Virus record (IMG/VR): IMGVR_UViG_3300047319_000515
Coordinates: 1-30,732 of that record
Source of the DNA: a virus
Direction: 5' to 3' (one strand)
Length of the DNA stretch: 30,732 bases
The position numbers and the translations under genes were made by a program. Positions 13,074-28,708 of the stretch are shown in pieces (the stretch's first letter is position 1; each line of letters opens with the position of its first letter). Below the pieces are notes generated by a model. It had not been told where the DNA came from. It searched no databases and saw only the letters and a program-made list of their open reading frames with translations.

Positions 13074-13077
<4 letters not shown>
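12763..13077 (-). CDS. Cro/CI-type HTH transcription regulator, 104 aa
   Basis: The start is GTG at 13077, with AAAGG about 8 bases upstream and a GTGA overlap with the previous stop. The C-terminal ~60 residues form an XRE-type HTH: FRAIVAKSLLNQNQLAKASG then QSRQVIGDYYHGRKCPCVYTLLKLCRAL. The N-terminal ~40 residues are basic and helical. There is no peptidase domain, so it resembles Cro-like or small repressors. It is placed next to the divergent control region, so it probably regulates the early/replication operons. Operator candidates are the dyads at 2448, 7729, 13877 and 16293. Confidence 0.78.
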
Positions 13078-13781
<704 letters not shown>

Positions 13782-13787
13782 GCCCGC

Positions 13788-13816
13788 AGACACTAGACGC
13801 TGGCGGCGGCTGTCAA
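13788..13816 (-). promoter_or_regulatory. Possible promoter for the leftward control/replication operon
   Basis: A perfect TTGACA (13811-13816) lies about 30 bases upstream of the ATG at 13781 on the minus strand. The -10 hexamer at 17 bp (GTGTCT) is poor; TAGTGT at 15 bp is a 3/6 match. Transcription starting near here would give almost no leader. Confidence 0.3.
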
Positions 13817-13876
13817 CACAAAATCCGCTGGACGATTCCGCGCAGTCGCGTAGGGTCGGCACTCTACCGACAAAGA

Positions 13877-13908
13877 ACCCCGGCTAGCCATCCCTGTCTA
13901 GCCGGGGT
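13877..13908. promoter_or_regulatory. 11-bp perfect inverted repeat in the divergent intergenic region
   Basis: Arms ACCCCGGCTAG (13877-13887) and CTAGCCGGGGT (13898-13908) are exact complements around a 10-base loop. On the minus strand the stem is followed by TTCTTTG. On the plus strand it would form a hairpin in the 5' leader of the primase-helicase mRNA, about 37 bases before its ATG. It lies between two divergently transcribed operons, so it may be an operator, a leader hairpin or a block to readthrough. Confidence 0.55.
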
Positions 13909-13944: not shown

Positions 13945-16218
13945 ATGCCATCCTATCCTATCCGTGCGGCGCTCCTGTCTAGCGAAATTTCCTACTACCA
14001 AAGCGCGCGGGATAGAACCGGAAAAAAGTATAAAATTGCCGATATTCTCCGCGTTATCCGCGACGGCAAGAATCTAGCGCAGTTGACTGCGGACGTGCGC
14101 AATCTATCCGGCGAGGCGCAAGCAGCCGCGAAGGAAGCGTTGCCGGCTGTCACTTGGTCCGGATTGTTTACACAACGCAGAGCGGATTTACTGGCGCGGC
14201 ATTCATCGCTGGTCTGCCTGGACGTGGACCATTTGCCTAAAGACGGTGTAAACAATGCGAAAGACTGGATTGCCACAAGCCCGCACGTTGTGGCAATTTT
14301 CATTTCGCCCCGTGGCGCTGGCCTAAAGGTCTTGATCGCTGTGGCATTCCATGACGGCGCTGCGCTGGCGCATGGCGCAGCCTGGCAGACGTGCGCGAAT
14401 TACCTTAAAGACGAATATGGCTATACCGCCGACCCGTCTGGCAAAGACGTGTGCCGGCTGTGCTTCCTATCGAGCGATCCAGGCTTGTACGTGGCTACGG
14501 ACGTGGAACCGCTGGCGGTTGATCCGCGCGCAGCCGGCGCCGTGATGCTCGCGCCAGCGTCCGGCCCGCTCGACTCGCCGGAAGCGATAGAGACGGCACT
14601 CCGCCAAGGTCCGCTGGTGTTGCCGGACATCACACTGGACAAGGCGGCGCAGGTGTTGGGCTTCCTTACTCCCGATTGCCCGCGCGGCGAATGGATCACG
14701 GTTGGCCTTGCGCTTAAAACGCAATTCCCCGATGATCCAGACGGCGCGGCGGGGTTATTTGACCGATGGTCTAGCGGGGAATTGTGGAAAGGCGAACCGC
14801 TAGTAACGGACTTCTACCCCGGCGCGGAGGCGGTGCTAGCCGAGTGGGCGACATTTTCCGATCCGACCCGCCGCGCGCATCCCGTGCGCTTCCGTACCGT
14901 GCTGGCGAAGGCGTTGCAGTCGGGCCGCTTCAAAATGACGGATATTACCGACCCCGGAAGCGCCACCAATGCGCAATTTATATGGCTCAAGGAACAGTGC
15001 GAGAAACACCTGGCGATGCGCGGGCTTACGCTCAATGCCGCTAACGCGCTGTGCTACGCAGAGAAGCCGGCGCAGTTGATCCGGCTAACAACTGAGGAAT
15101 TGGCGGCAGAGCTTGCCCACGAATTTAACCACCATCAGAAAGGCTTGACGATCCAGAAAGTTAAGGAAACCATAGACGCGATTCTCAAGCCTTACGGGTT
15201 CGCCCGGCGCATGGCGATGATGCGCGACCTCTGCGGGAAGCCCGGCGACTTGCGCGGCGCGGCGGAGGCTCGCAAGTGGCTGCGTGCGTTGACTGGCACA
15301 GAGCGCGAGTCGGACCTTATGGCGCTTGGGCATTGGCTTTGGTCGGTGAAAGTCAAGCAGACCGGTGGCGTGGGCGATCATCACTTAATGCCGATCCTGT
15401 ATGGCGTGTTGCAAGGCGCAGGCAAAAGTACGGCGGTCAAAATGCTCTGCGCTCCCTGGGCGGAGTTGCAAACGCAGATAACGGCGGAGCATTTTGACCC
15501 GCGATCCGCGCCGACCTTTTGCAATTACGCCATTGGCGTGTGGGATGAAATGCAGGGTATTGCTAAAACGGAAGTCGGGCGGCTTAAAAATATCCTCACG
15601 GCTGCGGCAACGTCATACCGCCCCATGCGCAGTAATGAAAATAAGGATATTCCCGTGCTTATGTGCTTCATCGGCACCAGCAATAAGACGGTTGCCACGA
15701 TGATTCGGGACGATTCCGGCTCGCGGCGGTTTTATCAAATCGACTGCGCGGACACGGTAGACCAGGCGGCGATTAACGCTATTGATTATCGGTTATTGTG
15801 GTCTTGGGTTTCCGAGCTTGAACCGTCGCCTATGACCAAGGAATGCCGGGAGCGCATGCGGGTTAAGCAAAACCTGGACGGCTATAAGGATTCTGTCGAG
15901 CGTTGGCTGGCGGAAGAGGAATGGGGAGACGCGCAGGTTTTGAACCCGGCTATGGGTAGCAGCACGATTCTAACCAAGTCCGACCCTGCCGGATGGATTA
16001 GCACGGAGGAAATGTTTTTACGTTACGGGCATTGGTGCCGCAGTGCGGGCGAGCCGACACAGTCGCGGGAATCAATGGGGCGAAAATTGAAGGAATTAAA
16101 ATGGGAATCGGTACAAATGCGCTCCGGTATTAATCGCGGAAAAATGGGGTATGTTAATAAAATGGCAAGACAGGAAAATACGTGGAAAGGCGTAAATAAA
16201 TATGGTATTCCAATTTAA
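13945..16218 (+). CDS. Primase-polymerase / SF3 helicase (VapE/VirE type)
   Basis: The 757-aa protein starts behind AAGGAATC. The N-terminal primase-polymerase-like domain shows the acidic motif LVCLDVDHL with D93/D95, then ISPRGAGLKVLIAV (120-133) and YGYTADPSGKDVCRLCFLS, as in VirE-N/BT4734-type domains. A PriCT-like segment follows (LTPDCPRGEWITVGLALK, about 241-258). The C-terminal VapE-type SF3 helicase has Walker A GVLQGAGKST (487-496), Walker B IGVWDEM (530-536) and the sensor/arginine part FIGTSNKTVATM then DDSGSRRFY. It probably makes primers and unwinds DNA for the family A polymerase. It is the only replication gene on the plus strand. Confidence 0.9.
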   Translation: MPSYPIRAALLSSEISYYQSARDRTGKKYKIADILRVIRDGKNLAQLTADVRNLSGEAQAAAKEALPAVTWSGLFTQRRADLLARHSSLVCLDVDHLPKDGVNNAKDWIATSPHVVAIFISPRGAGLKVLIAVAFHDGAALAHGAAWQTCANYLKDEYGYTADPSGKDVCRLCFLSSDPGLYVATDVEPLAVDPRAAGAVMLAPASGPLDSPEAIETALRQGPLVLPDITLDKAAQVLGFLTPDCPRGEWITVGLALKTQFPDDPDGAAGLFDRWSSGELWKGEPLVTDFYPGAEAVLAEWATFSDPTRRAHPVRFRTVLAKALQSGRFKMTDITDPGSATNAQFIWLKEQCEKHLAMRGLTLNAANALCYAEKPAQLIRLTTEELAAELAHEFNHHQKGLTIQKVKETIDAILKPYGFARRMAMMRDLCGKPGDLRGAAEARKWLRALTGTERESDLMALGHWLWSVKVKQTGGVGDHHLMPILYGVLQGAGKSTAVKMLCAPWAELQTQITAEHFDPRSAPTFCNYAIGVWDEMQGIAKTEVGRLKNILTAAATSYRPMRSNENKDIPVLMCFIGTSNKTVATMIRDDSGSRRFYQIDCADTVDQAAINAIDYRLLWSWVSELEPSPMTKECRERMRVKQNLDGYKDSVERWLAEEEWGDAQVLNPAMGSSTILTKSDPAGWISTEEMFLRYGHWCRSAGEPTQSRESMGRKLKELKWESVQMRSGINRGKMGYVNKMARQENTWKGVNKYGIPI

Positions 16219-16241
16219 CTCTTTTAATAGGCATATGTTAA

Positions 16242-16258
16242 CACTATTGGAAATAGTG
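16242..16258. repeat. 7-bp inverted repeat
   Basis: CACTATT and AATAGTG are exact complements around GGA. The palindrome lies 24 bases after the primase-helicase stop codon in AT-rich DNA. No U-run follows on the plus strand. It could be an operator half of the control region. Confidence 0.4.
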
Positions 16259-16292
16259 GAAAGAGTAAAAAGAATAAGTAAGTATATAGCGG

Positions 16293-16321
16293 TATACTCC
16301 TACTATAATGGTAGGAGTATA
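16293..16321 (+). promoter_or_regulatory. 11-bp hairpin with TATAAT in its loop, abutting a Shine-Dalgarno
   Basis: Arms TATACTCCTAC (16293-16303) and GTAGGAGTATA (16311-16321) are exact complements. The 7-base loop contains a consensus -10 box TATAAT (16304-16309), but the hexamer 17 bp upstream (AGTATA) is not a good -35. Directly after the right arm comes GGAGG, the ribosome site of the 25-codon ORF. It may be an operator over a promoter, or an RNA stem beside a translation start. Confidence 0.5.
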
Positions 16322-16329
16322 GGAGGAAT

Positions 16330-16407
16330 ATGCTGATACCCCTGCCAACCCTTGCACCCTTGCCAAAGTGGCCTGCCACAGTCATAGGAAGCCACTTCCC
16401 TATTTAA
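16330..16407 (+). CDS. Possible 25-aa leader-type peptide, Pro-rich
   Basis: ATG follows AGGAGG by 3 bases, the best ribosome binding site in the window but with short spacing. The product is 25 residues with a Pro-rich first half (MLIPLPTLAPLPKWP) and a short polar end. It ends 29 bases before the next gene. A hairpin abuts its ribosome site. Such an arrangement suits a leader peptide, but the reading could also be an accident of the repeated CCCTTGCCAA units that encode most of it. Confidence 0.35.
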   Translation: MLIPLPTLAPLPKWPATVIGSHFPI

Positions 16408-16418
16408 ACCCTTGCCAA
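16337..16418 (+). repeat. Three CCCTTGCCAA-like direct repeats
   Basis: ACCCTTGCCAA occurs exactly at 16356-16366 and 16408-16418, and as ACCCCTGCCAA at 16338-16348. A partial CCCTTGC lies between the first two. AAGTGGC and GCCACTT also pair across about 21 bases within the block. Short spaced direct repeats next to AT-rich DNA resemble iterons, but three copies are few. Confidence 0.45.
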
Positions 16419-16436
16419 CTTAATTAAGGAGTAATT

Positions 16437-16673
16437 ATGGACGAAAACACTATTAAATCAGATAATAAACCGCGCTGCGGTAATTGCCGGTATTATTTAC
16501 CGCCAATTAAAAGGCTTGGCCCTACGGGTATTGATTTAAGTGGGCAATGCCGGATTCGCGCGCCATCGGCAGTCGGCGGCTTCCCGCTGGTACAGGCAAT
16601 CCAGTGGTGCGGCGAGCATTCACCGACCGGCCCGGACCTAACCACCATCGCAACAAATATGGAAAGGAAATAA
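16437..16673 (+). CDS. Small Cys-rich protein, 78 aa
   Basis: ATG is preceded by AAGGAG at 6 bases, an excellent site. The product has CGNC (about 15-18), a single Cys in GQCRIRAPS and WCGEH near residue 60, a four-ligand pattern suited to one zinc ion. Similar short CxxC-x-n-C-WCG(E/D)(H/Y) proteins are common in phages and of unknown function. It opens the rightward late region. Confidence 0.75.
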   Translation: MDENTIKSDNKPRCGNCRYYLPPIKRLGPTGIDLSGQCRIRAPSAVGGFPLVQAIQWCGEHSPTGPDLTTIATNMERK

Positions 16674-25382: not shown

Positions 25383-25411
25383 AACCCTCCGCGTATCGTG
25401 CGCGGAGGGTT
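25383..25411 (+). terminator. 11-bp hairpin after the capsid block
   Basis: Arms AACCCTCCGCG (25383-25393) and CGCGGAGGGTT (25401-25411) are exact complements around a 7-base loop. No U-run follows (ACAGCG), so strong intrinsic termination is unlikely. It sits in the 134-bp gap after the capsid and decoration genes. It may act as an attenuator or as an RNA-stability stem that keeps the capsid message high relative to the downstream connector genes. Confidence 0.5.
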
Positions 25412-28522: not shown

Positions 28523-28708
28523 ATGGGCAACGCATCCGCTCCCGATTTCGACGAAAATTTCGCGCGCCAGCAAGTGACCAACTGGCGCGCGAAATACGAA
28601 GCGGCGCGCGCTGCGGGCAATTCCGGCGATGCCGTCAAGGCGGCTGCGAGCGTGGACGCGGCGGAGACTCGTTTAAACGAAATCACCAGAAAGAACAGAG
28701 GCAGGTAA
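28523..28708 (+). CDS. Small helical protein, 61 aa
   Basis: AAAGGG precedes the ATG by about 7 bases. The product is one charged helix pair (EDNF-like start, then RQQVTNWRAKYEAARAAGNS, GDAVKAAASVDAAETRLNEI) ending in basic residues. It lies between the tail tube and chaperone genes. No family is recognised. Confidence 0.55.
   Translation: MGNASAPDFDENFARQQVTNWRAKYEAARAAGNSGDAVKAAASVDAAETRLNEITRKNRGR

Follow-up and report, generated by a model that had tools for sequence, protein, structure and literature searches.

SaPI Rep uses its C-terminal domain to recognise iterons that immediately follow its own gene, and Cch2 of SCCmec similarly binds direct repeats downstream of its own gene; only three iterons are present in this instance, and binding depends on the direct repeats but does not require the inverted repeats (PMC7581432). 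The PICI rep-ori drives plasmid replication, and an iteron origin directly behind the initiator gene has been presented as a PICI hallmark that occurs in 'no other known bacterial replicon' (PMC6092414). A different arrangement is found in pRN1, where a stem-loop behind the primase-helicase gene orf904 is the origin itself, and according to the authors of that work a similar stem-loop is present in phage BIP-1 (PMC4234260). Here we analysed a 30.7-kb stretch of a virus record (the whole of which is referred to as the window), with emphasis on the 218-bp region at 16219-16436, for which a preliminary description had offered three readings, namely a replication origin, a late promoter under repressor control or a leader-peptide attenuator. 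The replication origin is the best supported of the three, as an AT-rich trough and direct repeats are located directly 3' of a VapE gene and arrays are likewise placed at many other VapE loci, and we put at roughly 60% the probability that the region represents the iteron-type replication origin of this phage, or the core of that origin, behind its VapE gene.

The VapE gene and the AT-rich trough

The rightward arm of the window comprises, in order, the primase-helicase gene (13945-16218, + strand), the 218-bp region, two small ORFs, TerS, TerL, portal and head genes, while leftward genes on one side specify a DNA polymerase, a helicase, an HNH endonuclease, an exonuclease, a single-strand binding/annealing protein and an HTH regulator; the preliminary description likewise places the region between a replication gene and the late genes. 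The primase-helicase (757 aa) contains BT4734_N, PriCT_2 and VapE domains (Pfam matches PF08800, 1.5e-26; PF05272, 4.4e-17; PF08707, 8.6e-5), and its VapE region matches PDB entry 7pds, 'Similar to D. nodosus vapE', in a phmmer search (1.9e-5), the PF05272 and 7pds matches identifying a Rep-type helicase such as serves as the initiator at a SaPI/PICI rep-ori. In a helicase tree the VapE of the window forms a very long branch that settles neither with nor away from the iteron-bearing groups, and the AF2 model of its residues 640-757 has a pLDDT of 39, which is too low to be used for a C-terminal DNA-binding domain. The first gene past the region encodes a 78-aa ORF (16437-16673, + strand) with a weak match to a PHROG of unknown function, and is preceded by its own Shine-Dalgarno sequence, AAGGAG, at good spacing (16426-16431). 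Searches by DNA and by protein retrieved no close relatives of the window, TerL relatives showing at most 48% identity. MW202897 is the only relative with VapE, TerS, TerL and portal in common, and displays a leftward early block followed by rightward VapE, TerS, TerL and portal, with no gap after VapE. Elsewhere in the window, dense GGC/GTC triplet repeats were observed at 13137-13316 within a minus-strand ORF (13074-13862), where they probably represent a coding low-complexity (Ala/Asp-rich) segment.

The GC content of 16219-16436 is 39.4% as compared to 54.5% for the window, with 0.6% of 218-bp segments being equally low, which bears out the preliminary description of an AT-rich region, albeit in part, as the trough starts inside the primase-helicase gene and the repeat-bearing part does not belong to it. 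The lowest-GC 218 bp begin at 16070, within the 3' end of this gene, and the lowest 150 bp of the window are found at 16141-16290 (29.3% GC, the next trough being at 39.3%), representing an AT-rich meltable region of the kind that is characteristic of a SaPI/PICI rep-ori. The AT-rich part thus runs from the last portion of the primase-helicase gene into the gap, of which it takes up the first 70 bp. As a whole, the trough (16070-16290) is the GC minimum of the window and a proposed DNA unwinding element. The repeat segment at 16338-16418 has a GC content of 54% and is located on the downstream side of the trough. The GC-skew analysis that had been suggested as a check revealed no switch at the region, in a measure that is confounded by gene direction.

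Direct repeats, hairpin and mini-ORF

The individual elements previously listed for the region (a 7-bp inverted repeat, an 11-bp hairpin with TATAAT in its loop, AGGAGG, a mini-ORF and direct repeats) were all confirmed, in sequence as well as in position. The direct repeats form a cluster (ACCCTTGC, three times, and CCCTTGCCAA) of three to four imperfect copies on one strand only, consisting of the iteron-like repeat CCCCTGCCAAC, which includes CCCCTGCCAA (16339-16349), a partial iteron ACCCTTGC (16348-16355), the iteron-like repeat CCCTTGCCAA (16357-16366) and the iteron-like repeat CCCTTGCCAAC, which includes CCCTTGCCAA (16409-16419), all on the + strand. The first two full repeats are spaced 18 bp apart, and the first of them is located 120 bp past the VapE stop, directly 3' of the putative initiator gene as in a SaPI/PICI rep-ori. 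In 0.15% of dinucleotide shuffles of the 218 bp, an 8-mer with three or more copies was accompanied by a 10-mer family of three or more members, so that the iterons, with three exact 8-mers, exceed chance as do those of a SaPI/PICI rep-ori, albeit at a low copy number. When a repeat matrix built from ten other loci was scored over all positions of the 30.7 kb, the copies at 16409, 16339 and 16357 were ranked first, third and ninth in the window, ranks that involve some circularity, the window itself having been the starting point of the motif search. A second iteron set flanking the AT-rich region was not found, the best opposite-strand candidate, at 16157, being ranked 324.

These figures bear on the explanation that the region is no more than an ordinary AT-rich spacer between genes, where a hairpin and a few repeats coincide by chance. 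Such a coincidence would be consistent with there being only three to four repeat copies, with the absence of the gap from MW202897, the one phage with the same gene order, and with the whole-window shuffles, 6 of 60 of which contain a perfect stem of 11 bp or more. However, the repeats are locally improbable, they occupy the usual position of such arrays and adjoin the window's GC minimum, and their core is common to arrays beside other VapE genes (see below), and we therefore regard a chance spacer as decidedly unlikely.

The region contains two dyads, the 7-bp inverted repeat CACTATT-GGA-AATAGTG (16242-16258) and the perfect 11-bp hairpin TATACTCCTAC-TATAATG-GTAGGAGTATA (16293-16321), the loop of which carries TATAAT at 16304-16309. 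A perfect stem of this length or longer was obtained in 0.2% of local shuffles, and the hairpin thus exceeds local chance. The hairpin spans 29 nt, or 54 nt when counted with a predicted outer RNA stem (16281-16287 paired with 16328-16334) that extends it and pairs the AUG of the mini-ORF. On a rival explanation, the main role of the region is to serve the late (packaging/head) transcript as promoter and 5' leader. The hairpin would then be either an operator over a -10 box or, as RNA, an element for the stabilisation or processing of the leader, and the CCCTTGCC repeats would be incidental. The central position of TATAAT in a perfect dyad, the strong predicted RNA fold of 16240-16336 (z = -6.8 as compared to shuffles) and the location upstream of the small ORFs and terminase genes are in agreement with this explanation. 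Against it, no -35 partner is present at 16-18 bp from TATAAT, and the + strand promoter scan gives no site ending there. Phage operators are often repeated, whereas the half-site TACTCCTAC has no other mismatch-free copy in the window, and long perfect stems (at least 11 bp) occur at three further places in it (28557, 25383 and 13877). A repressor-controlled late promoter, as envisaged in the preliminary description, is consequently weakened, and we consider a region devoted mainly to the late transcript to be rather unlikely. An Rfam search of the region returned nothing, while the exact hairpin-type pattern was found in four stretches on three viral contigs, which in those read had no context in common with the window.

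The other stems are of some note in their own right. The longest hairpin of the window is a perfect 14-bp one at 28557-28595 (ATTTCGCGCGCCAG, an 11-nt loop, CTGGCGCGCGAAAT); the perfect 11-bp hairpin at 25383-25411 (AACCCTCCGCG, a 7-nt loop, CGCGGAGGGTT) is a possible terminator without a T run; and that at 13877-13908 (ACCCCGGCTAG...CTAGCCGGGGT, 11 bp, perfect), which is located between the divergent starts of a leftward ORF and vapE, is a candidate operator or control site. In addition, the first leader hairpin has a GGA in its loop that recurs in the SD-like AGGAGGA (16242-16326), a combination reminiscent of CsrA/RsmA binding sites.

The sole + strand copy of AGGAGG in the window (16321-16326) precedes a Pro-rich mini-ORF of 25 codons, MLIPLPTLAPLPKWPATVIGSHFPI, which extends from an ATG at 16330 to a TAA at 16407. 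It is conceivable that translation of this mini-ORF governs the 78-aa ORF and late genes through the hairpin, as the near-perfect Shine-Dalgarno sequence, the open 25-codon frame and the predicted pairing of its AUG by the outer stem would allow. The Shine-Dalgarno sequence is however located only 3 nt from the AUG, which is a short spacing. In the + strand leader scan no intrinsic terminator was found after vapE, the hairpin being trailed by GGAGGAAT and not by a T run, and the half of the region that holds the repeats and the mini-ORF is unstructured (16340-16436, z = -0.1). The proline codons, moreover, are present because the repeats spell them, the peptide PLPTLAPLP consisting of in-frame repeats in which PLP, TLA and PLP correspond to CCCCTGCCA, ACCCTTGCA and CCCTTGCCA, and the next gene possesses a Shine-Dalgarno sequence of its own. 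The mini-ORF is probably a non-functional by-product of the repeats, and a leader-peptide attenuator, for which neither terminator nor antiterminator was detected, appears highly improbable.

Repeat arrays at other VapE genes

Viral contigs were scanned for two copies of the repeat core TTGCCAACC at a spacing of 0-2 bp, resulting in 40 stretches, and when these were pooled with those of the first repeat scan a VapE domain was present in 15 of 43 records. The copies adjoin the VapE frame in 13 of these 15, being located downstream of it in nine and just upstream in four; in a fourteenth record (L048) they are found ~0.4 kb past the VapE domain by record coordinates, and in L050 they are at the far contig end and would adjoin VapE only if the genome were circular. 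Two candidates from the first repeat scan appeared by eye to be coding or unrelated, L036 resembling a pentapeptide-repeat gene and L037 being located just ahead of a gene start. The tandem TTGCCAACC pairs just upstream of a VapE frame are those at L040:7976-7993, L042:9364-9381, L066:1641-1658 and L070:3055-3072. The TTGCCAACC iteron beside VapE was furthermore observed in L039, L044, L053, L064, L068, L075, L087 and L097, the VapE genes of which belong to separate branches of the helicase tree and have close relatives that use other words; the code may be of common or of convergent origin.

For an assessment free of any motif, a collection of 84,980 species genomes of bacteria and archaea was searched at the protein level for VapE genes (44 loci), and it was determined whether the most repeated 8-mer within 350 bp reached at least four copies. 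This was the case downstream of VapE at 22 of 43 loci, as compared to 0 of 43 upstream and 10 of 859 elsewhere (Fisher 8e-25); shuffled downstream DNA gave 0 of 430, and 21 of the 43 loci were without a downstream array at the four-copy level. For the best 80 viral-contig loci, at least four copies were present downstream in 24 of 75, upstream in 0 of 71 and elsewhere in 2 of 1208, and at least three copies were observed downstream in 67 of 75 as compared to 86 of 1208 elsewhere. The loci are related to one another, and the counts do not represent independent events. Since a top count of exactly three is the commonest in viral contigs (43 of 75), the three copies in the window are not unusual.

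The repeated word varies by lineage (TTGCCAACC, GTGAACCCA, GTCGTCACA, GTCGGAACC, GTCCAACC, GTGACAACC), and several loci are laid out alike, with a low-GC stretch that is surrounded by 9-bp tandem pairs and inverted copies. VapE loci with many downstream TTGCCAACC copies carry these on both strands, as do most of the related arrays, often around an AT-rich stretch, whereas the window has copies on one strand. Arrays were located downstream of VapE in the named phages Marinobacter PS3, Staphylococcus SAP11, Pasteurella PMP and Corynebacterium Lederberg, with a weaker array in the Streptococcus satellite Javan56, and none was found behind the VapE/primase gene of phi46:1, KPhi1, Mano, Persinger, BcepNY3, SFCi1, BC679P3 or MW202897, where phi46:1 and MW202897 represent the closest relatives by domain make-up (BT4734 type). 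Among the helicase-domain relatives found, the nearest (L136, 34% identity) harbours three same-strand direct repeats with a period of 18 directly after the gene. At the level of sequence, the support for an origin that is free of circularity thus comprises the shuffles, the GC minimum, the position of the repeats and those of L136, while the low copy number, the single strand and the lack of a second set speak against it, as do the two relatives of like domain make-up, which have no arrays.

A putative origin as compared to known modules

By analogy with SaPI Rep and Cch2 (PMC7581432) and with the PICI modules (PMC6092414), VapE would be the initiator that binds the downstream repeats, and the bound protein would then load as a hexamer, melt the AT-rich stretch and prime there. 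The hairpin between the AT-rich trough and the repeats may aid strand opening or primase loading, a role that is possible because the pRN1 stem-loop behind a primase-helicase gene is itself an origin; alternatively, it may belong to the downstream transcript as an RNA element unrelated to the origin. If the origin reading is right, it provides a testable origin for an uncultivated phage.

The general pattern across phages is of greater interest than the assignment made for the window. We tentatively suggest, at somewhat below even odds, that iteron origins directly behind VapE-type genes are common in ordinary phages and prophages, a feature that no paper in the library searched was found to describe; the window would then represent a reduced, one-sided version with a short iteron row and a hairpin. 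As the iteron words differ by lineage, the sequence itself could serve to locate origins and to decode initiator specificity. This would make origin finding simple in many VapE-encoding phages, whose annotation usually marks no origin, would tie ordinary phages to the replication modules of satellites (PICI) and SCCmec, and would supply natural initiator/iteron pairs for the study of specificity change.

Among the known systems, pRN1 resembles the window in that the latter also has a hairpin downstream of a primase and helicase gene. However, the origin of pRN1 lacks iterons and consists of a stem-loop of 100 nt, a length that the much shorter hairpin of the window does not reach. The phage P4 alpha protein, in so far as it is portrayed in PMC4234260, is likewise a primase-helicase that binds origin repeats via a winged-helix domain, and differs in having a Toprim primase. 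SaPI/PICI modules share with the window repeats and AT-rich DNA immediately 3' of a VapE-type initiator helicase gene, but a PICI is a satellite with two iteron sets flanking the AT-rich region, whereas the window belongs to a virus with head and packaging genes and has one set on one strand. The origin proposed in the preliminary description is supported by the trough, the repeats and the arrays at many VapE loci, and the strict two-set PICI layout was not found, the region probably belonging to the broader class of repeat origins behind an initiator helicase gene. The putative origin at SCCmec cch2 likewise follows the gene of a self-loading helicase and comprises short direct as well as inverted repeats. 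Although Cch2 is a D5_N/Primase_Cterm helicase with the iteron AAGTG, the layout of this putative three-iteron origin comes, among those published, closest to that observed in the window.
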